Part shown: one piece after another, positions 5,188 through 40,754 of the stretch
Numbering within the stretch: position 1 is the first letter of the stretch
Layout of the letters: every line of letters starts with the position of its first letter
Assembly (NCBI GenBank): GCA_012964435.1
Contig: DTTX01000074.1
Span: 1-40,754, forward strand
From: Mesonia sp.
GTDB taxonomy: Bacteria; Bacteroidota; Bacteroidia; Flavobacteriales; Flavobacteriaceae
Direction of reading: 5' to 3'
DNA length: 40,754 bases
Notes under the pieces: generated by a model
What the model was told of the DNA's origin: nothing
Seen by the model: only the letters and a program-made list of their open reading frames with translations
Databases searched by the model: none
Program-made: the position numbers and the translations under genes

Positions 5188-5682
5188 TTAATTTTTATTT
5201 TTGGACATAAATTTGTTGGTATCTGTATTCTTGGTAACATCCTTCCAATGAAAAATTTTACCATTCATAGCAATATATACATCGGGCTTTAGAAATTGTA
5301 AAGAGCTAATGGCAAACCCTAAATTGAAAGAGGCATCCGTATCTTTAGAGTTTCCTATTATAAATGAGCCTACGAGAACAATAGTTTTTTCAAGGCCCTT
5401 ATTGCCAAGGTAAAATGCGGTATCTTCCATCGTAAAAGTGCCGTGGGTTATTAAGATTTTTTCCGCATTGGAAGCTTTTATTTTTTTTAGTAAAAACATC
5501 CTGTCTTCATCGGTAATTGATCGGCTATCTTTGGCGAATGCTTTTTCGATAATGTAGGGAAAGGAAACATTGGCAGAATCAAGAAACTCCCGAATAGTGA
5601 TTTTACTTTGCTCTAAATTATTTTCTGGGTTTTCATAATCCAGGCCTTCAATAGTTCCCCCTGTGGTGATAATATGAATCAT
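5188..5682 (-). CDS. Asparaginase-fold N-domain protein, probably not an enzyme
   Basis: A 164-aa protein that matches only the N-terminal domain of L-asparaginases (complete enzymes are about 330 aa). The first motif TTGGTIEG (6-13) is intact and keeps the nucleophile-type threonine. The second motif reads THGTFTMEDTA (79-89), whereas active enzymes have HGTDTMEETA; the substrate-binding Asp is replaced by Phe83. With no C-terminal domain and this substitution, amidase activity is doubtful. Two bp separate it from the LuxR membrane regulator, suggesting a ligand-binding partner or cofactor for that sensor. The structure assignment is strong; the function is inference. Confidence 0.75.
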   Translation of the reverse strand: MIHIITTGGTIEGLDYENPENNLEQSKITIREFLDSANVSFPYIIEKAFAKDSRSITDEDRMFLLKKIKASNAEKILITHGTFTMEDTAFYLGNKGLEKTIVLVGSFIIGNSKDTDASFNLGFAISSLQFLKPDVYIAMNGKIFHWKDVTKNTDTNKFMSKNKN

Positions 5683-5719
5683 TTTATAAACTTTATTAGT
5701 TTGTAAATCCCTTGGTTAC

Positions 5720-5887
5720 TCAATGCTTATGAATATTCCCTTTTAGCACAAAAAAGTAAAGCAGAAATGAGGCAATAACCAAGAGGACAAGTACAATAAC
5801 TCCCTTGACTTTATCTTTTTTTGTGATTTTGTTTTTAGCTGGTTTTTGAGCTTTTTTCTTTCTTCTATTTCTTCTACTTTGAGACAT
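5720..5887 (-). CDS. Small single-pass membrane protein (55 aa)
   Basis: An ATG at 5887 opens a 55-codon frame ending with TGA at 5720-5722. The first 28 residues are extremely basic (Arg/Lys/Gln/Ser, beginning MSQSRRNRRKKK). They are followed by one hydrophobic segment (residues ~29-48, GVIVLVLLVIASFLLYFFVL) and a short tail ending HKH. Predicted topology is N-terminus inside. It starts 9 bp downstream of the zinc/cadmium P-ATPase stop on the same strand, so it is probably the last gene of that operon. Small proteins of this shape can regulate or stabilise transport ATPases (KdpF and MgtR are known precedents), but no homology to them is claimed. Confidence 0.6.
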   Translation of the reverse strand: MSQSRRNRRKKKAQKPAKNKITKKDKVKGVIVLVLLVIASFLLYFFVLKGNIHKH

Positions 5888-5896
5888 CTTGTTAAA

Positions 5897-7861
5897 CTAT
5901 TTCCAATTCATTTTCTGTAATCTTACGGCGTTGAGTATTGCTAAAAACGCCACTCCAACATCGGCAAATACGGCCTCCCACATTGTCGCCATTCCAAAGG
6001 CACCTAATGCCATAACGGCAATTTTAACCCCGAATGCCAAGCCTATATTCTGCCAAACGATTCGTCTGGTGGAACGCCCAATTTTAATGGCTTGGGCAAT
6101 TTTAGAAGGCTGGTCGGTCTGGATGATGACATCTGCGGTCTCAATGGCGACATCGCTGCCCAGACCTCCCATAGCCATACCTACATCGCTGGTCGCAAGT
6201 ACAGGAGCATCGTTGATGCCATCACCAATAAAAGCCACGGTAGTGCCGGTGACTTTTTGAAGCCGTTCCACTTCGTTGAGTTTATCTTCCGGTAATAATC
6301 CTCCCATTGCACTATCCACACCCATTTCCCTACCAACTTCTTTGGTAATGGAATCCTTGTCACCAGAAAGCATTATGATTCTTGATATTCCCGCTTTACG
6401 GATTTGTTTGATTGCTTCGTGGGCATCTTCCTTCAGTTCGTCGGCAATGGTCACGTAGCCTGCAAATTTCCCATCAATTGATACCATTACAATAGATTCT
6501 ACAATGGTTTCAGTTTCCGCAGGGACTTCTATATTGTTTGAGGTCATTAAAGCCTTATTGCCCACTAAAACCGTTTTACCGTTTACTGTGCCTTTCAAGC
6601 CTTTTCCTGCCACCTCAGATACTTCGGAAGCTTCAAAATCCGCACCTTTGGTCTTATATTCCAATATCGCCTTGGCAATGGGATGGGTGGACTGTTCTTC
6701 CATCGCCATCAGGTATTTCATAAATTCCGCTTCCGCGAAAGTGTCATTATTAACAACATCCTTGATTTTAAAGACCCCTTTGGTAACCGTTCCCGTTTTG
6801 TCCATTACCACGGTATTCACTTTGGTCATTGTATCCAAGAAGGAAGCTCCCTTAAAAAGAATACCGTTGTGCGAGGCTGCTCCCAAACCACCAAAATAGC
6901 CCAATGGAATCGAAACAACCAATGCGCAGGGACAAGAAATAACAAGGAAGATCAAGGCACGGTACAACCAATCTTCAAAGATGTAATTCTCGACAAATAG
7001 ATAGGGTACAAAGGTCAGTCCAATGGCAAGGAATACCACGATGGGGGTGTACACCCTCGCGAATTTTCTAATGAACAGTTCCGTTTTTGATTTACGGGCG
7101 GTGGCATTCTGTACCAAATCCAGGATACGGGCAATTGAACTGTCCTTGAATTCCTTAGTGGTCTCGATTTCAATAACTCCATCGAGGTTGATACTTCCGG
7201 CAAAAACCTTGTCGTCTTTTGCAACAGTATCGGGTTTGCTTTCGCCGGTAATGGCAGCAGTATTCAACGAAGCTTTTTCGGATAACAGTTTACCGTCCAA
7301 AGGGATTTTCTCGCCCACCCGTACCTGAATCTTATCACCAACCTCGACCGTTTCGGGGTTGACGGAAACAAAATCGCCATCACGATATACCAAAGCTTCA
7401 TTGGGACGCACATCCAAAAGGGCTTTTATATTACCCTTCGCTTTTTTGACCGCAGCACTTTGAAAGAGCTCGCCGACCGCGTAAAAAAGCATTACTGCCA
7501 CGCCCTCGGGATATTCGCCTATGGCAAATGCCCCCAATGTTGCGAGTGACATTAAAAGGAATTCGGTAAAGAAATCCCCATTTTTTATACTTTTCCAACC
7601 TTCAATAATAACGGGAAACCCAACAGGAATATAGGCTACAACGTACCAGATTATTCGAACCCAACCCTCGAAAAACGGGAAGGCATCAAAATAATCGATG
7701 ACAATACCCGCAATCAGCATTACAAAACTGAAAATAGCGGGTAGGTAGGTTCTAAATTTTGATGCTTTTTCCGGACTACTGTGGTTATGGCCATCATCGT
7801 GGCTGTGTTCGCCAGAATGTTTCCGGGTATCGATATCCCTTAGATTTTGTTTTTTCTTCAT
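5897..7861 (-). CDS. P1B-2-type Zn/Cd/Pb-exporting P-ATPase
   Basis: A 654-aa metal-pumping ATPase of the inner membrane. The short N-terminus lacks a CxxC HMA domain but is His/Asp rich (HSGEHSHDDGHNHS, about 15-28). Core motifs are all present: TGES (205-208), the CPC transport motif (310-312), the phosphorylation motif DKTGT (354-358), an HP motif (STHPIAKAI) and GDGINDAP. The last membrane segment has a conserved Lys and the ADVG motif typical of the Zn/Cd/Pb subgroup. I chose the ATG at 7861, which leaves 10 bp after the CDF gene; the longer frame from 7912 would overlap it. With the CDF gene upstream it forms a zinc/cadmium efflux pair. Confidence 0.92.
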   Translation of the reverse strand: MKKKQNLRDIDTRKHSGEHSHDDGHNHSSPEKASKFRTYLPAIFSFVMLIAGIVIDYFDAFPFFEGWVRIIWYVVAYIPVGFPVIIEGWKSIKNGDFFTEFLLMSLATLGAFAIGEYPEGVAVMLFYAVGELFQSAAVKKAKGNIKALLDVRPNEALVYRDGDFVSVNPETVEVGDKIQVRVGEKIPLDGKLLSEKASLNTAAITGESKPDTVAKDDKVFAGSINLDGVIEIETTKEFKDSSIARILDLVQNATARKSKTELFIRKFARVYTPIVVFLAIGLTFVPYLFVENYIFEDWLYRALIFLVISCPCALVVSIPLGYFGGLGAASHNGILFKGASFLDTMTKVNTVVMDKTGTVTKGVFKIKDVVNNDTFAEAEFMKYLMAMEEQSTHPIAKAILEYKTKGADFEASEVSEVAGKGLKGTVNGKTVLVGNKALMTSNNIEVPAETETIVESIVMVSIDGKFAGYVTIADELKEDAHEAIKQIRKAGISRIIMLSGDKDSITKEVGREMGVDSAMGGLLPEDKLNEVERLQKVTGTTVAFIGDGINDAPVLATSDVGMAMGGLGSDVAIETADVIIQTDQPSKIAQAIKIGRSTRRIVWQNIGLAFGVKIAVMALGAFGMATMWEAVFADVGVAFLAILNAVRLQKMNWK

Positions 7862-7871
7862 CGTGATTTTA

Positions 7872-8768
7872 TTATTCCAGACCTTGATAGGGTTTATATT
7901 CTTTGTCCCCAAATTCTTTTTCGATTTGCAGGGTGGTATGGGTTATTTCAAATTTATCGTGCAATTGTTCCCGGATATCGTAGATGAACTGATCCTCGTG
8001 CCCATCAGGAACGACCAGATGGGTAGAAAGTGCCGTTTCCGTGGTACTCATTGCCCAGATATGTAAATCGTGTACTTCTTCGACCCCTTCGATATCCATT
8101 AAGAATTTTTCCACTTCATCGATGTCGATGTTTTTGGGAACGGCATCAATGGCTATTTTTACGGAATCCCTCAAAAGTCCCCAGGCACTATATAAAATGA
8201 CCAGTACAATGACCAAACTAAGCGCAGGGTCTATCCACGTCAATCCTGTGTATTTAATGGCAAGTCCACCAAGAAGCACTCCTAAAGTTACCCCGGCATC
8301 GGCGGCCATATGTAAAAATGCGCCACGTATGTTCAAATCGCCTTTTGAACCTTTCCAAAAAAGGAAAGCCGTACCGGTGTTTACCACCAAACCAATAGCC
8401 GCTACAATCATTACGATGTTACCGGAAATTTCTGCCGGATTTTGGAATTTTTGAATGGCGTCCCAAGCGATCAGTCCCGCAGCCGCAATGATGATAAGCC
8501 CATTGATCATCGAAGCCAAAATGGTCGTTTTTCGTAAACCATACGTATAGCGTTTTGAGGGTCTTTTAGTCGCTATTTTAATTGCCGCCCAGGCCAGGAT
8601 CAGACTAAAGACATCGCTTGCATTGTGGGCTGCATCTGCAACGAGGGCTGAAGAATTGACCATAAAACCATAATACAACTCGACGACAACATAAATAGTG
8701 TTCAAGGCTATGCCTATGCCAAAAGCCTTTCCGTAGTTCTGTGAACCGTGTGAATGATCGTGTGCCAT
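7872..8768 (-). CDS. Zinc-type CDF transporter (CzcD/ZitB-like)
   Basis: A 298-aa cation diffusion facilitator with six membrane segments and a cytoplasmic C-terminal domain, exchanging Zn(II) or similar ions for protons. The N-terminus is His-rich (MAHDHSHGS). The transport site is of the HD-HD kind: H48 and D52 in membrane segment 2 (DAAHNASD, 45-52) and H153 and D157 in segment 5 (HMAAD). In characterised CDF proteins this arrangement favours zinc, while a DD-HD site also admits cadmium. The SpoIIAA-like gene lies 11 bp upstream and the P-ATPase 10 bp downstream, so the three are probably co-transcribed. Confidence 0.92.
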   Translation of the reverse strand: MAHDHSHGSQNYGKAFGIGIALNTIYVVVELYYGFMVNSSALVADAAHNASDVFSLILAWAAIKIATKRPSKRYTYGLRKTTILASMINGLIIIAAAGLIAWDAIQKFQNPAEISGNIVMIVAAIGLVVNTGTAFLFWKGSKGDLNIRGAFLHMAADAGVTLGVLLGGLAIKYTGLTWIDPALSLVIVLVILYSAWGLLRDSVKIAIDAVPKNIDIDEVEKFLMDIEGVEEVHDLHIWAMSTTETALSTHLVVPDGHEDQFIYDIREQLHDKFEITHTTLQIEKEFGDKEYKPYQGLE

Positions 8769-8779
8769 AATTATCTAAT

Positions 8780-9136
8780 TTATTTTTTTATCCATTGTTT
8801 AGCTGTTTTTCTATCTTCTAAACTAAAATAGTTGATCTCGGCGTTTGTAAATGGTTTCATAAATTGGGCAATCCAATCCTGCCATTTTTTTTCACCCACC
8901 ATCGCTATTTTTTCATAATCTTTTGCGTGGGCAGTATCCATTTTTAGATCTTCCCACAGGCCTGGAAAATCCCAGCCGGTAAAATTCTCCATTTCAAAAT
9001 ACCAGCGTACTTTTAGGTCTTTATCTAAAATAGAATGGATAAGTGGATGTATTTTTTCAATATCCTTTTCTGTCAAATTCCCCGATGCTCTGGTAGCAAT
9101 AATATTATCTCCTGAAATCTCTATAATTTGTAACAT
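8780..9136 (-). CDS. SpoIIAA-like (STAS/SEC14-type) protein, copy 1
   Basis: A 118-aa soluble protein with the SpoIIAA-like fold pattern: an N-terminal beta strand pair (ISGDNIIATRASGNLTEKDIEK), a conserved core VRWYFEMENFTGWD, a central KIAMVGEKKWQDW and a C-terminal FSLEDRKTAKQW. The family is often found near ion transporters and stress proteins, but its molecular role is not settled. A diverged second copy sits in the same island at 22075-22434. It lies between the 58-aa small gene and the zinc CDF gene, with gaps of 11-18 bp. Confidence 0.85.
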   Translation of the reverse strand: MLQIIEISGDNIIATRASGNLTEKDIEKIHPLIHSILDKDLKVRWYFEMENFTGWDFPGLWEDLKMDTAHAKDYEKIAMVGEKKWQDWIAQFMKPFTNAEINYFSLEDRKTAKQWIKK

Positions 9137-9154
9137 ATCTATTTTTATTAATTA

Positions 9155-35806: not shown

Positions 35807-35914
35807 AATTTTTTTATTTAAAATTAGTCAAGATATTTCTAAACAAATGCCAATAAAGTGTTATGTAACATTAATTTTAGAAAATATGTTAAACCATTCA
35901 TCGACACTAAAGGT

Positions 35915-35983
35915 CAACTCAACGATATAGTTGAAAGCTTAAACGATTAGTTGAAATTGTAAGTTTTTATTTATTCATATTTG
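35915..35983 (+). promoter_or_regulatory. Promoter region of the H-NOX/FIST operon with repeated AGTTGAAA
   Basis: AGTTGAAA occurs at 35929-35936 and again at 35949-35956, exactly 20 bp apart, about two helical turns. The upstream copy also pairs with CAACT (35915-35919) as an inverted repeat. CATATTTG (35976-35983) matches the Bacteroidota -7 box TAnnTTTG at all but one base, with TTG around 35957 as a possible -33. This would start transcription near 35990, 20 bp before the response-regulator ATG. A regulator that binds the repeats is suggested; nothing indicates which. Confidence 0.45.
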
Positions 35984-36009: not shown

Positions 36010-36423
36010 ATGAGAAATAAATTAAAAATTTTGCTTATCGAAGATGATATGATCGAAGTGATGAAACTCAATCGTACAATATCATCAACAGAGCTTTCCC
36101 ACGAAGTTATCGAAGCAAAAAATGGTGAAGAAGCACTTACTTTTTTAAGAAGTGATAAAGCTTTACCAGATATTATTTTATTAGACTTAAACATGCCAAA
36201 AATGAATGGTATTGAGTTTTTAAATGTTTTAAAGAATGATGAAGTTCTTAAATATTTACCAACCATAATCTTAACTACTTCTGCAAACCAAAAAGATATT
36301 TTGGCCTGTTACAAATCTGGAATAGCGGGTTACATTATTAAACCACTTAAATACGAAGATTACGTTATAAAATTAAAATCACTTTTAGACTATTGGAGTC
36401 TAAACGAGCTTATTAAAACCTAA
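36010..36423 (+). CDS. Stand-alone CheY-like response regulator
   Basis: A 137-aa receiver domain with no output domain. The phosphorylation site is D59 (LLDLNMPKMNG), with the acidic pocket E11-D12-D13 (LLIEDD), the switch Thr in ILTTSA (T89/T90) and the conserved K111 in IIKPL. The spacing to the H-NOX gene is 2 bp, so the proteins are made together. It is the presumed phosphate acceptor of the multi-PAS kinase downstream. Rcp1-like receivers of this kind are often paired with PAS kinases in flavobacteria. Its output partner is not encoded in the window. Confidence 0.92.
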   Translation: MRNKLKILLIEDDMIEVMKLNRTISSTELSHEVIEAKNGEEALTFLRSDKALPDIILLDLNMPKMNGIEFLNVLKNDEVLKYLPTIILTTSANQKDILACYKSGIAGYIIKPLKYEDYVIKLKSLLDYWSLNELIKT

Positions 36424-36425
36424 TT

Positions 36426-36968
36426 ATGAAAGGCATCGTTTTTACAGAATTTTTAGAAATGGTTGAAGAAAAATTTGGTTTAGAAACTGTAGATTATATA
36501 ATTAACAGTTCTGAGCTTAAATCTGATGGTTGTTATACTGCTGTTGGTACCTACGATTTTTTTGAAATGCAACAATTATTAGTTCATTTAAGTGAGGTCT
36601 CTAAAATACCGGTTAATGACCTTATTTATACCTATGGCCTGTATTTTTTTAAAACATTAACAGCCCACCATTCAGATATTTTTAAATATTACGACTCCCC
36701 AATTAAAATGGTGGCTTCTATTGAAAACCATATTCATATTCAGGTAAAAAAAATATATCCTGAAGCACAACTCCCCACCTTTCAAATAATTGATCAAGCC
36801 GAAAACAAACTTTCCCTAATTTATAAGTCAGAAAGAGCGATGTTTATGTTCGCTAAAGCATTAATGGAAAAAACATTTGAATATTATAAAGAAAATGTCG
36901 AAATTAAATTCGATTTACTAAATGAGAAAGGTACCGAGGTAAAGTTCTTAATCAATTCTTATGAATGA
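36426..36968 (+). CDS. H-NOX haem nitric-oxide/oxygen sensor
   Basis: A 180-aa haem-binding sensor domain protein, starting MKGIVFTEFLEMVEEKFG as in many bacterial H-NOX. The haem-ligand His is predicted at H104 (the IHIQVKKIYP stretch, with the conserved Pro of YPEAQLPTF 8-13 residues later). The YxSxR motif that holds the haem propionates is intact at YKSER (133-137). A stand-alone H-NOX beside a kinase binds NO (and CO), and NO-bound H-NOX usually inhibits the kinase. It lacks an obvious distal-pocket Tyr of the O2-binding type, but reading that residue with certainty needs a structure-based alignment. The kinase gene overlaps it by 8 bp. Confidence 0.9.
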   Translation: MKGIVFTEFLEMVEEKFGLETVDYIINSSELKSDGCYTAVGTYDFFEMQQLLVHLSEVSKIPVNDLIYTYGLYFFKTLTAHHSDIFKYYDSPIKMVASIENHIHIQVKKIYPEAQLPTFQIIDQAENKLSLIYKSERAMFMFAKALMEKTFEYYKENVEIKFDLLNEKGTEVKFLINSYE

Positions 36969-39333
36969 ATTATCTAAAAAAATTGAAGTTCTAGAAAAAG
37001 CATTACTACGGGAGAAGAATGCCAGAAAGAAAGCAGAATCTATTTTAGAAGAAAAATCTACAGAACTTTATAATTTATCTGAAGCTTTAAAAACTTCAAA
37101 CCAAAAACTTGCCAAACATTTAAAAGAAAAAACTAATCAGTTAGAAGGTGTTTTCACGAATATCTTAGATGCGTATGTTGTGATCGATATTAATGGGTTT
37201 GTCTTGAATATGAATGATGCAGCCGTTACTCTACTTGGTTTTGATCATAAAAAAGAAAATGTAAATCTTTTAGAACTTGTAAAACCTGAATATATAGATT
37301 ATACTAAATATGCATTTAGAGAACTATATCATAAAGGAAAATTCGCCAATTATAGAGCACAACTTTATACCAAGAACAAGGAAGAAAAATTTGTTCAAAT
37401 TAATGCAAGTATTATTTATGATGAAAACGGTAAACCTATCGCTGCACAAGGAATTGCGAGAGATATTACTAACGAAACTTTTCTAAAAAAAGAACTTGAA
37501 GAACAAAAAAAACAATTAGATATCGTGATGGATAATTCGCCAATTGGGATTAGTCTATCTAAATCTAATTTTGAAGGATTGATTCTTGCTAATAAAACCC
37601 TATCTAAAATGTTAGGATATTCTCAAGAAGAATTAAATTCTATCGATCCTAAGGTCATCACACATCCGGAAGATCGAGATTGGTCTCTACAACATTTGAA
37701 TGATCTAAAAACCGGAAAAATAAAAGATTATTCTGTAGAAAAAAGATATATTAAAAAGAATGGCGAAACAATTTGGGTAAAAACTTCAGCCAAAGCCGTT
37801 ATAGATAAAAATCAGAATGCTTACCAAGTAGCAACATTTGAAGATATTTCTAATGAAAAATTAGCGCTAGAAAAACTCAAAGAATCAGAAAACAGACTTT
37901 CTGCGTTAATTGTTAATTTACAGACCGGTATTCTCTTAGAAGATGAACATCGTAAAATTTTACTAACAAATACAAGATTTTGCAAGATGTTTGGCATAGA
38001 TGCACCACCGGAAGTTTTAAAGGGAATGGACTGTAGCAATGCAGCAGAACAAAATAAAATTTATTTTAAAAATCCTGAAGGTTTTGTAAATAGGATTAAT
38101 GAACTTTTAGAGAAAAAAGAAACAGCACTCAACGACGAATTATACCTAAACGATGGTCGAGTTTTCGAGAGAAATTATATCCCTATCTATCACGAAGATC
38201 AATACAAAGGTCATTTATGGAGTTATACCGATATTACCATTCGTAAGAAATATAAAGAAAGCCTACACGCACAAAAAGAGAAATATAGTAGCATCATTGC
38301 CAATATGAATTTAGGATTATTAGAAAATGATCTTGAAGACAATATTATCTTTTCTAACCAAAGTTTTTATGAAATGAGTGGGTACACAGAAGAAGAACTT
38401 TTAGGAAAAAAAGCAACTGATCTATTTTTAACTGAAAAATCTTTAGAAGCTTATAACGAGAGAAAAAAGAAAAGAGACTTAAGTAAACCAGATTCTTTTG
38501 AGCTATCAGTAATAAATAAATTAGGCAAAACAAGACATTGGCTTATAAGTACAGCCCCTAACTTTAATGTAAAAGGAAATAAAACAGGAAGTGTAGGTAT
38601 TCATCTAGATATTACTCATATTAAAGAGTTAGAAAAACAAAAAGAGCAACTTCTTAATAATCTCGAAAAACAAAATGAACAACTCAATGAATATGCACAT
38701 ATTGTTTCTCACGACTTAAAATCTCCACTTAGAAATATTTCTGCACTTTTAAGTTGGACCAAAGAAGACTTTCAAAATAAATTAGGAGAAGAGAGTTTAA
38801 CAAATTTAGACCTTATGCAATCTAAGGTTGAAAAAATGGATCATCTTATCGAAAGTATTCTAAAGTATTCGAGTATTGATAGTGATATACTTATTGAAGA
38901 AGAAATTGATCTAAATGAATTAATAGTAGACATACAAGATCTTATTTATATACCCGAACATATAAATTTAGTAGTCAAAACAAAATTACCGATTATAAGA
39001 GCAGATAAAACTAGAATACAACAAGTATTTCAAAACCTTATTAGTAATGCAGTAAATTATATCGATAAAGAAAAAGGGTTTATCGAAGTAGATTATACTT
39101 CATCTAAAAGTCATCACATTTTTTCTGTAAAAGATAACGGAATTGGTATTGCAAAAGAGCATCACGAAAAAATCTTTAAAATTTTTAGCTCGCTTGGTAA
39201 CTACGAAAAATCTACAGGAATAGGGTTAAGTATCGTAAAGAAAGTAACCGAATTATATAAAGGTAAAGTTTGGCTAGAAAGTGAAGTAAATAAAGGCACA
39301 ACTTTCTTCATAAGTATTAAAAAAGTAAAATGA
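36961..39333 (+). CDS. Multi-PAS sensor histidine kinase (likely H-NOX partner)
   Basis: A 790-aa soluble kinase with no membrane segment. The first ~55 residues are a coiled coil (KKIEVLEKALLREKNARKKAE). Four PAS domains follow (roughly 57-180, 187-305, 310-430, 440-560). HisKA lies at ~570-640 with H584 in SHDLKSPLRNI, and the ATP-binding domain at ~680-788 with N box (NLISNAVNY), DNGIGI and STGIGLSIVKK. Because it overlaps the H-NOX gene and is cytoplasmic, it is the probable NO-controlled kinase. The PAS domains show no haem- or flavin-specific residue that I can assert. Its phosphate target is probably the first gene's receiver. Confidence 0.9.
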   Translation: MNELSKKIEVLEKALLREKNARKKAESILEEKSTELYNLSEALKTSNQKLAKHLKEKTNQLEGVFTNILDAYVVIDINGFVLNMNDAAVTLLGFDHKKENVNLLELVKPEYIDYTKYAFRELYHKGKFANYRAQLYTKNKEEKFVQINASIIYDENGKPIAAQGIARDITNETFLKKELEEQKKQLDIVMDNSPIGISLSKSNFEGLILANKTLSKMLGYSQEELNSIDPKVITHPEDRDWSLQHLNDLKTGKIKDYSVEKRYIKKNGETIWVKTSAKAVIDKNQNAYQVATFEDISNEKLALEKLKESENRLSALIVNLQTGILLEDEHRKILLTNTRFCKMFGIDAPPEVLKGMDCSNAAEQNKIYFKNPEGFVNRINELLEKKETALNDELYLNDGRVFERNYIPIYHEDQYKGHLWSYTDITIRKKYKESLHAQKEKYSSIIANMNLGLLENDLEDNIIFSNQSFYEMSGYTEEELLGKKATDLFLTEKSLEAYNERKKKRDLSKPDSFELSVINKLGKTRHWLISTAPNFNVKGNKTGSVGIHLDITHIKELEKQKEQLLNNLEKQNEQLNEYAHIVSHDLKSPLRNISALLSWTKEDFQNKLGEESLTNLDLMQSKVEKMDHLIESILKYSSIDSDILIEEEIDLNELIVDIQDLIYIPEHINLVVKTKLPIIRADKTRIQQVFQNLISNAVNYIDKEKGFIEVDYTSSKSHHIFSVKDNGIGIAKEHHEKIFKIFSSLGNYEKSTGIGLSIVKKVTELYKGKVWLESEVNKGTTFFISIKKVK

Positions 39334-40463
39334 TGAAAGTAGTACAAGCCATTCAAAAAAATAAAAGTTGGGAGTATCTTCAGCCTAAAAAAGAATTAAA
39401 TAATCCGCTGGTATTTGTGTTTGGTGAACGAAAATTGCTTCAACAAAATGATATTTTAGAGAATATTGAAAAAGAATTTCCTTACCAACATAAAATTTTC
39501 GGGTCAACCGCCGGAGAGATCATAAAAGATCGAGTTTTAGATAACTCCATCACTGTTACTGCAATAGAATTTGAAAATAGTACCTTTCAAATTGAAAGAG
39601 CAAATATAAAAGAAACCAATAATGACTCTCAAGCATTAGGTAGAGAACTATTTAGAAAACTAACTAAAGAAAATTTAAAGCATATTTTTATTATTTCTGA
39701 GGGCAGTTTTGTTAACGGAAGTGCTTTAATTAATGGTATTGAAAAAGATAATAAAAACCAAGTAAAAATATCGGGAGGTTTGTGTGGCGATAACGAACGT
39801 TTTGAGAAAACTTTAGTTTCTTATCGCGAAGAGCCTCAAGAAGGTGAAGTGATTATTTTAGGTTTATACGGAGAAGATTTAGAGATCACTTCTTCTAGCT
39901 GCGGAGGTTGGATTCCCTTTGGACCGCAAAGAATTATCACAAAATCTAAAGATAATATTCTTTACGAAATCGATGATATCCCGGCATTAGACCTTTATAA
40001 AAAATATTTAGGTGATAAAGCATTAGAATTACCCCATTCCGCACTATTTTTTCCTTTAAACGTTCAAGCTCAAAATAATTCTCAACCGGTAGTTAGAACG
40101 ATTTTAAATATAGATGAAGAAAATAAATCGATGATCTTTGCGGGAGATCTACCGAAAGGATCAAAAGTACAATTAATGATGGCCTCTGTAGATGCAATTG
40201 TTGGTGGTGCCGGCGATGCTGCCATACAAGCTATGCAAGGTCGAGTTAAAAAGCCGGAAATAGCTTTACTTATTAGCTGTATAGGTAGAAAACTTGTGAT
40301 GGCTCAACGCACCGAAGAAGAGGTTGAAGAAGTACTTCAGATCATAGGTTGCGACACGAAAACTACAGGGTTTTATTCGTATGGTGAAATTGCACCATTT
40401 CAAACTCAAGAAAATGCTCAACTTCATAACCAGACAATGACGTTAACCCTAATTAGTGAGTAA
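39330..40463 (+). CDS. FIST-domain protein, NosP-type haem NO sensor candidate
   Basis: A 377-aa protein with FIST_N (about 40-230; GSTAGEIIKDRVLDNSITV, FIISEGSFVNGSALINGIEKD, ISGGLCGDNERFEKT) and FIST_C (about 235-365; SALFFPLNVQ, MIFAGDLPKGSKVQLMMAS, ALLISCIGRKLVMAQRTEEEVE). FIST proteins beside PAS kinases were shown, as NosP in Pseudomonas and other genera, to bind haem and NO and to inhibit the partner kinase NahK. Here the gene overlaps the kinase stop by 4 bp (ATGA) and is followed by a NahK-like start. ATG at 39330 or 39333. That this protein binds haem is inference. Confidence 0.85.
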   Translation: MMKVVQAIQKNKSWEYLQPKKELNNPLVFVFGERKLLQQNDILENIEKEFPYQHKIFGSTAGEIIKDRVLDNSITVTAIEFENSTFQIERANIKETNNDSQALGRELFRKLTKENLKHIFIISEGSFVNGSALINGIEKDNKNQVKISGGLCGDNERFEKTLVSYREEPQEGEVIILGLYGEDLEITSSSCGGWIPFGPQRIITKSKDNILYEIDDIPALDLYKKYLGDKALELPHSALFFPLNVQAQNNSQPVVRTILNIDEENKSMIFAGDLPKGSKVQLMMASVDAIVGGAGDAAIQAMQGRVKKPEIALLISCIGRKLVMAQRTEEEVEEVLQIIGCDTKTTGFYSYGEIAPFQTQENAQLHNQTMTLTLISE

Positions 40464-40754
40464 TGGATTCTTTACTAAAAAGACAAATTAAAAAATATCT
40501 TCCGGAAGAATTCGTAAACGACGAAAGGTTAACACCATTTTTAGAAGCCATTAATAGCACTTATCAAACTCAACAAGATCAATTTAATATGTTGCAAAGG
40601 GCTATGCAAATTAGTTCTGAAGAATTGTATAAAGCAAATCAAAAATTAAGAGCAGAAAGTGAAGCTCAACAAGAAATTTTAAATAGCTTAAATGAAGTAA
40701 TCAAAACACTACATCTAACCAAATTTTGCCTCCATAAAAATCGATTATTTTTTT
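40463..40754 (+). CDS. NahK-like sensor kinase, N-terminal fragment cut by window end
   Basis: The ATG at 40463 overlaps the FIST stop by one base. The visible 97 codons give MDSLLKRQIKKYLPEEF, FLEAINSTYQTQQDQFNMLQ, RAMQISSEELYKANQKLR and the start of a coiled coil. This N-terminus is typical of PAS kinases encoded after FIST genes (NahK type) and of related hybrid kinases. The PAS, HisKA and ATPase parts lie beyond the window. The last ~20 residues (from TLHLTKF) depart from the usual continuation, which may mean a frameshift or a low-quality contig end. Confidence 0.78.
   Translation, partial: MDSLLKRQIKKYLPEEFVNDERLTPFLEAINSTYQTQQDQFNMLQRAMQISSEELYKANQKLRAESEAQQEILNSLNEVIKTLHLTKFCLHKNRLFF

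Follow-up and report, generated by a model that had tools for sequence, protein, structure and literature searches.

How does a flavobacterium use an operon that combines genes for two sensor families, H-NOX and FIST, with two histidine kinases and a single stand-alone receiver, and what does such an operon control? The question is raised by the last part of a 40,754-nucleotide stretch of DNA from Mesonia sp. (Flavobacteriaceae; positions 1 to 40,754 of contig DTTX01000074.1, assembly GCA_012964435.1), hereafter called the window. According to passages of a review, most of the bacterial responses to nitric oxide (NO) that have been worked out end in cyclic dimeric guanosine monophosphate (c-di-GMP) (PMC8738867). 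The answer that we favor for the operon studied here, and consider rather probable, is a cytoplasmic two-sensor phosphorelay in which a LytTR-type response regulator acts on its own operon and on matrix genes.

The operon continues beyond the window and recurs in the family

The five genes that a preliminary description of the window had reported, all on one strand and overlapping by 8, 4 and 1 bp, were recovered and given Pfam identities. They lie on the forward strand and encode a stand-alone receiver (REC, 36010-36423, 137 aa, acceptor D59, 77.5 bits for Response_reg), the haem NO sensor H-NOX (36426-36968, 180 aa, proximal His104, YxSxR motif, 124.3 bits for HNOB), a soluble kinase with four PAS domains followed by HisKA and HATPase_c (HK1, 36961-39333, 790 aa), a protein with FIST N and FIST C domains that is NosP-like and scores below the NCBIfam cut-off for NosP (39330-40463, 377 aa), and a second soluble kinase without a recognized sensor domain (HK2, from 40463). 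A gap of 2 bp separates REC from H-NOX, and the overlaps fall between H-NOX and HK1 (8 bp), HK1 and FIST (4 bp), and FIST and HK2 (1 bp). Reading frames and Pfam together confirm an operon in which a single stand-alone receiver gene is joined to H-NOX, FIST and two genes for soluble kinases. Within HK2, at a run of Ns left by the assembly, the window breaks off; the contig comprises 90,996 bases, and the HK2 frame crosses the N run, extending from 40754, the last position of the window, to 41542. Past the window, the contig continues with genes for an HPt-like protein (41547-41870, 107 aa) and a response regulator of REC-LytTR architecture (LytTR, 41876-42592, 238 aa), spaced by 4 bp from HK2 and by 5 bp from each other, respectively. 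The full cassette is REC-H-NOX-HK1-FIST-HK2-HPt-LytTR; the operon seen in the window is real but incomplete.

That a tight operon of both sensor families "seems uncommon", as had been supposed, is contradicted by the co-location search. Among 299 genomes of the same family, H-NOX is present in 105, FIST_C in 85 and both in 66, a count from which 1 of 109 H-NOX rows was removed for falling under the cut-off with its frame broken, as were 17 of 114 FIST_C rows that represented additional, weaker copies (all 85 genomes kept a row). In 57 of the 66 genomes both sensors are encoded within 6 kb on one strand, H-NOX being first in 56 and the order reversed in one (G253). A phylum sample of 395 genomes contained 27 with H-NOX; 20 of these were new, 14 of the 20 had FIST_C, and in seven the two genes were adjacent by coordinates, six of these genomes belonging to the same family and one (G448) to another family of the class. 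The pairing of H-NOX and FIST is widespread in the Flavobacteriaceae and thin outside this family in the phylum sample. We also compared loci of named hosts, the best 80 of at least 585 H-NOX relatives, a set that overlaps the 299 genomes and is not independent of them; it includes Salegentibacter, Mesonia, Zobellia, Maribacter, Aquimarina, Winogradskyella and Tenacibaculum and, outside the family, Roseivirga and Algoriphagus, and FIST is part of the cassette in 50 of the 80 loci. The two genomes of the same genus in the sample (G053, G273) carry neither H-NOX nor FIST_C. As the gene order recurs so widely, the operon is more than a chance arrangement.

FIST-HK2 is an optional module on a fixed H-NOX core

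The 107 H-NOX loci fall into 49 with the full order, 35 with the order REC-H-NOX-HK1-HPt-LytTR, and a remainder of variants or cut loci. When the 103 uncut loci are considered, REC, HPt and LytTR occur together with FIST in 51 and without it in 40, one of which (L149) has kept HK2, while 12 are organized otherwise; L047 is counted as lacking LytTR though this gene lies past an inserted frame. FIST-HK2 is an optional plug-in module on a fixed H-NOX core. On a tree of 90 cassettes its presence changes 21 times (shuffled mean 29), and at least 10 of these changes are forced by starred branches. The tree is blind to gain versus loss; because the divergence of FIST-HK2 follows that of the cassette (r 0.71, n=51, 0 of 2000 permutations), inheritance with repeated loss fits better than repeated capture.

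Predicted phosphorelay components and paralogous kinases

The acceptor residues of a multistep phosphorelay are present in the receiver, the HPt-like protein and the regulator: across 102 rows, conservation reaches at least 93% for each of D12, D13, D59 and K111 of REC, and H56 and H60 of HPt as well as D53 of LytTR are likewise present in at least 93% of rows. The genes also keep company in a corresponding manner. HPt occurs without REC in none of the 103 uncut family loci and in none of the 80 loci of named hosts, and every locus with both REC and LytTR in the cassette also has HPt (91/91 in the family, 72/72 among the named hosts). Two observations weigh against such a relay: the HPt-like protein scores 24.0 bits, slightly below Pfam's 24.6, and HPt is kept without LytTR in three loci (L064, L066, L075). 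A deviating arrangement is seen in Salegentibacter sp. R32 and Mesonia oceanica (L241, L242), where REC and HPt are missing together from the 20-kb locus, as would suit relay partners, and H-NOX, HK1, FIST, HK2 and LytTR are kept; in these organisms the kinases may feed LytTR directly. Their H-NOX proteins are the nearest to that of the window among the best 80 of at least 585 (75% and 73% identity, respectively).

The kinase cores of HK1 and HK2 are 47% identical (206 bits), whereas the other kinase cores listed from the same genome reach at most 31% and 97 bits. A tree calculated with 17 of 57 HK1 and 17 of 54 HK2 cores places both apart from nine other cores of the same genome (99, starred), with warnings for long branches; 6 of the 15 other kinases of this genome, whose cores were not extractable by script, were left out of both comparison and tree. 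Because the two cores are close paralogues, HK1 and HK2 are likely to share one relay and its receiver. The earlier idea of an integrated unit sharing one receiver stands in this respect; what it had missed are HPt and LytTR past the window, which make the unit a probable phosphorelay with transcriptional output.

Adjacency could, on the other hand, merely ensure co-expression of two separate systems, with H-NOX and HK1 driving REC and FIST-HK2 driving something else, or HPt and LytTR. FIST-HK2 is indeed gained or lost as a pair, and FIST and kinase genes form isolated pairs in five further genomes that were inspected (L151-L155). The standard arrangement, however, brings no second REC along with FIST-HK2, the core of HK2 is nearest to that of HK1, the pair sits between HK1 and HPt in the 49 of 107 loci with complete order, and it diverges in step with the cassette, as the correlation and permutations given above attest. 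We therefore judge two separate systems to be unlikely and retain the shared relay as our working model.

H-NOX and its kinase

With 124.3 bits against a Pfam cut-off of 25.5, the window's H-NOX is a clear HNOB domain protein. The H104 ligand and the YKSER motif pointed out in the preliminary description are borne out by conservation across 107 aligned H-NOX proteins (H104 in 106, Y133 and S135 in all 107, R137 in 101). The nearest solved structure is 6bde/6bdd (E 1e-58, full-length match), and 6BDD is the H-NOX of Kordia algicida, a flavobacterium, which passages of a published study describe as an NO sensor without O2 coordination (PMC7356049). By analogy with the Kordia protein, the cassette's H-NOX would bind haem and NO, and its predicted role in NO sensing is well supported by homology.

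HK1 matches several PAS models, HisKA and HATPase_c in Pfam, and the NCBIfam PAS S-box model delineates four PAS stretches. No segment of 19 residues exceeds 1.52 on the Kyte-Doolittle scale, in agreement with the earlier view of a soluble kinase with four PAS domains. The lengths of HK1 proteins fall into four groups of about 400, 540, 670 and 790 aa (103 of 106 proteins). The steps of about 130 aa suggest that PAS units are gained or lost whole, PAS domains having been counted by model in the window's HK1 alone.

The FIST protein and HK2

The FIST protein is recognized by Pfam (FIST 141.9 bits, FIST_C 124.9 bits). Its earlier designation as NosP finds no support, since it scores only 62.3 bits against the NCBIfam NosP equivalog with its cut-off of 450, a result that also weighs against the two-sensor relay proposed here. 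The name "NahK-like" for HK2 is not supported either: no family model names the protein NahK, and it reaches 86.8 bits where NahK-related models require 400. The 97 residues of HK2 that lie within the window match no Pfam or NCBIfam family on their own, and the whole frame, which adjoins the FIST gene, consists of HisKA and HATPase_c without any other Pfam domain. An AlphaFold model of the FIST protein (pLDDT 92.7) has the FIST region of human FBXO22 as its best solved match (E 1e-9 to 1e-7, TM 0.48-0.53); a sequence search for solved structures found no FIST relative. Conserved and hence candidate ligands are His366 (54/56) and Cys317 (56/56). The FIST slot of two loci (L048, L078) holds a very different FIST protein (20-21% identity) without His366.

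Homology support of the kind available for H-NOX does not hold for NO sensing by the FIST protein, which is thus not well supported. The protein may instead sense haem or another ligand, so that the unit would integrate NO with haem or redox state, a possibility that we take seriously while placing it at somewhat less than an even chance. The score far under the NosP cut-off points in this direction, as do passages describing that CdpA of Vibrio cholerae detects haem via FIST domains (PMC8846402), the title of a paper on Burkholderia thailandensis that names haem detection by NosP, and the two loci in which a distant FIST protein lacks the histidine otherwise present in 54 of 56. On the other side, a FIST gene followed by one for a kinase whose long N-terminus is undefined has its counterpart in NosP-NosK of Burkholderia pseudomallei as presented in passages of PMC12570481. 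Our model accommodates either ligand.

A LytTR-like box precedes the cassette

Upstream of REC, the window contains a LytTR-like box, ACCATTCATCGACACT (35893-35908, forward strand), which scores 27.4 with our position weight matrix (PWM) and represents a perfect first half, followed 21 bp on by a weak second half (35914-35929, forward strand, PWM -4.0). The sequence CATATTTG (35976-35983, forward strand), starting 83 bp after the box start, is a likely Bacteroidota -7 element that differs from TAnnTTTG at the first base. The box resembles the AlgR box, CCGTTCGTC. A TAGTTGAAA repeat 5' of REC, also considered as a regulator site, occurs in the window's locus only and was replaced by the CATTCGTC box. 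A scan of the window gave one match at 0 mismatches, while shuffles average 1.91 at up to three mismatches. A single window proves nothing for the box; the case is a comparative one.

Sites resembling WCCATTCGTCKACACT are found 5' of REC in 87 of 102 loci (PWM >8) versus 1 of 510 shuffled sequences, a second half scoring >3 is found at a distance of 21 or 22 bp in 53 of the 102, and 67 of 77 named-host loci have a box >8. The box follows the presence of LytTR: it occurs in 82 of 91 loci with this gene versus 1 of 7 without (Fisher p 3e-5; 4 of the 102 loci, L112, L114, L127 and L108, contig-cut or degraded, are left out), and two named-host loci with HPt and without LytTR (L265, L313) also lack it. 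Behind 156 strong boxes, TAnnTTTG starts at 62-64 bp from the box start in 33 cases, at 83-84 bp in 13, and at all other distances together in 6. Some caution is called for: the PWM scored the very loci from which it had been seeded and trained, the shuffles were mononucleotide shuffles, and 9 of the 91 LytTR-bearing loci have no box over the threshold.

Genes behind further boxes and the candidate output

In the fetched loci, 99 further boxes with PWM >13 lie near cassettes versus 6 in shuffles. A pattern search of the 299 genomes gave 93 sites in 63 genomes (reversed control 17), and the 48 that lie no more than 60 kb from H-NOX are all on the cassette strand, between -1.3 and +29 kb. The promoter of the window's own cassette is not detected by this pattern, which picks up one unrelated site in the same genome. 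In relatives, genes behind boxes encode a DUF6923 protein with a type IX secretion system tail, CAP lipoproteins, STAS proteins and an OEP exporter, and furthermore a polysaccharide flippase, glycosyltransferases, fusions of REC with glycosyltransferase or sugar transferase domains, and, by weak NCBIfam matches below the cut-off, a chain-length determinant; in L143 a UDP-sugar dehydrogenase is encoded about 400 bp behind the box. The same types of targets recur behind boxes in different genera.

Several results weigh against a wide regulon. Away from the cassettes, the pattern occurs 24 times in genomes with H-NOX and 21 times in genomes without, compared with 17 in the control. The window's genome has 18 box-like sites versus 12 in the reversed control, with the sole perfect site at the cassette; a regulon search in this genome yielded nothing beyond the cassette, and the 20 kb that follow it (L204) contain no box above PWM 9. 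Weak boxes (9.0, or <5) precede a STAS-like gene, whose product matches no Pfam family, and less clearly a glycosyltransferase gene. The output of the relay is read from relatives and not from the window's own genome, since the latter holds no other strong box.

The box might accordingly be general to this LytTR family, the polysaccharide genes mere neighbors and autoregulation the only real output. The confinement of the strong box to the cassette in the window's genome would agree with this, as would boxes at relays without H-NOX, e.g., L219 (REC-HK1-HPt-LytTR). Yet autoregulation would account neither for the excess of further boxes near cassettes over shuffles nor for the single orientation of all nearby pattern sites nor for the recurrence of target types across genera, and we regard such a restricted output as improbable. 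In L219 (from genome G115, which lacks H-NOX; 5619-9141 after reversal) the relay with its box adjoins genes resembling those for nitrate reductase, nitrite reductase and molybdopterin proteins, named by eye from sequence.

Directly behind LytTR, a candidate small RNA, an element of about 75 nt, is present three times in tandem on the window's own contig (42673-42759, 42907-42994 and 43120-43209; 8674-9210 in the fetched locus, L043). Each copy is preceded by box-like sites and has a -7-like element and a strong terminator hairpin. Salegentibacter and Mesonia relatives have a single copy each at the corresponding position, and about 40 nt are identical in all five copies save for a one-base length difference; as this difference falls in the conserved stretch, an open frame was set aside. 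Compensatory changes are clean at two pairs of the terminator, and a third pair carries a change that does not hold completely. An Rfam scan of L043 gave no match, and the candidate was not found in other family loci. Outside the window's genome, a model of the candidate scored only weakly, in 10 of 299 genomes (34-40 versus 92-100 bits), and we treat these hits as background. A formate/nitrite transporter (PF01226) is encoded about 3.4 kb behind LytTR (L043 11946-12809).

The mechanism that we propose for the two-sensor phosphorelay is as follows. H-NOX would bind NO at its His104-ligated haem and tune HK1, and the FIST protein would bind NO or haem and tune HK2. Both kinases would phosphorylate the single stand-alone REC, from which the phosphate would pass via HPt to the LytTR regulator. 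Phosphorylated LytTR would bind direct-repeat boxes of about 16 bp with a period of 21 bp just upstream of the promoter and switch on its own operon in a feedback loop. Its targets in many relatives would further include an exopolysaccharide locus and genes for secreted proteins, and in the window's close kin the candidate small RNAs. Should NO-loaded sensors inhibit the kinases, in the manner of characterized H-NOX and the majority of NosP systems, less matrix would be formed and dispersal favored, without participation of c-di-GMP. We infer haem and NO binding, the direction of control, each phosphotransfer step and DNA binding. In V. cholerae and Shewanella oneidensis, NO-bound H-NOX acts as an inhibitor of its kinase, as reported in passages of the review (PMC8738867), and NosP inhibits NosK in B. 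pseudomallei according to passages of PMC12570481. By analogy, inhibition by NO appears likelier. Legionella, in which NosP-NO is reported to stimulate NahK, speaks against this direction, and because NosP acts oppositely in these two organisms we commit to neither sign of the output.

No GGDEF protein was found in the window's genome, which is 90.5% complete; EAL and HD-GYP domains were not part of this search. Given this result, a c-di-GMP-independent route from NO to matrix is our best reading. A more far-reaching picture, to which we subscribe only tentatively, is that of a c-di-GMP-free NO switch for the flavobacterial matrix in which a fixed H-NOX and a plug-in FIST-HK2 module, haem sensors of unrelated folds, feed one relay, with LytTR in command of the polysaccharide genes that form a cluster behind it. 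In the window's close kin it would also govern tandemly arranged small RNAs of a new family. If true, the cassette would explain how bacteria without GGDEF proteins could couple NO to matrix production. The presence or absence of FIST-HK2 in otherwise alike cassettes provides a natural experiment on the contribution of the second sensor, and box and targets render the output of the relay directly testable.

Comparison with known systems

The earlier statement that no characterized example was known holds in part. Open-access PMC literature, the field covered by our search with subscription papers mostly outside it, gave no account of cassette, box or regulon, but the pairing itself is listed in the review, passages of which name FIST proteins among the genome neighbors of one H-NOX group and mention flavobacteria only in a reference title (PMC8738867). 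As far as the literature searched goes, the pairing of H-NOX and FIST is known in outline, and relay and output are new. Rfp18 of Flavobacterium psychrophilum was considered as a match and rejected, the passages on it mentioning no LytTR.

The closest solved relative of the window's H-NOX, the flavobacterial protein from K. algicida (6bdd, 6bde), was, according to passages of its description, studied as an isolated protein (PMC7356049). With H-NOX/HnoK of Shewanella and Vibrio (HnoX-HnoK-HnoB/HnoD; HqsK-LuxU) the cassette shares a stand-alone H-NOX beside a kinase, and in Vibrio parahaemolyticus and Vibrio harveyi the H-NOX-linked kinase feeds the phosphotransfer protein LuxU, a parallel to the HPt-like protein (passages of PMC8738867). 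In those systems, however, the output consists of c-di-GMP enzymes or quorum sensing, whereas the cassette clusters a stand-alone REC with HPt and LytTR in a genome without a GGDEF hit. NosP-NahK/NosK of Pseudomonas aeruginosa, Legionella pneumophila and B. pseudomallei resemble it in having a FIST gene beside a soluble kinase without a recognized sensor domain, as passages of PMC12570481 indicate; the cassette differs in a FIST protein far under the NosP cut-off, in having no receiver-effector gene of its own for this pair, and in the union with H-NOX. Joint NosP/H-NOX signaling in S. oneidensis (by the title of a paper) and L. pneumophila likewise brings both sensor families into one network, but in Legionella the three receptor genes are reported to belong to three separate operons, while the cassette forms one cluster. 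The regulator, finally, is a REC-LytTR protein like AlgR and AgrA; its likely box is a direct repeat with about two helical turns between the halves, and it would differ from both in being fed, as we propose, by a relay with haem-sensor partners.

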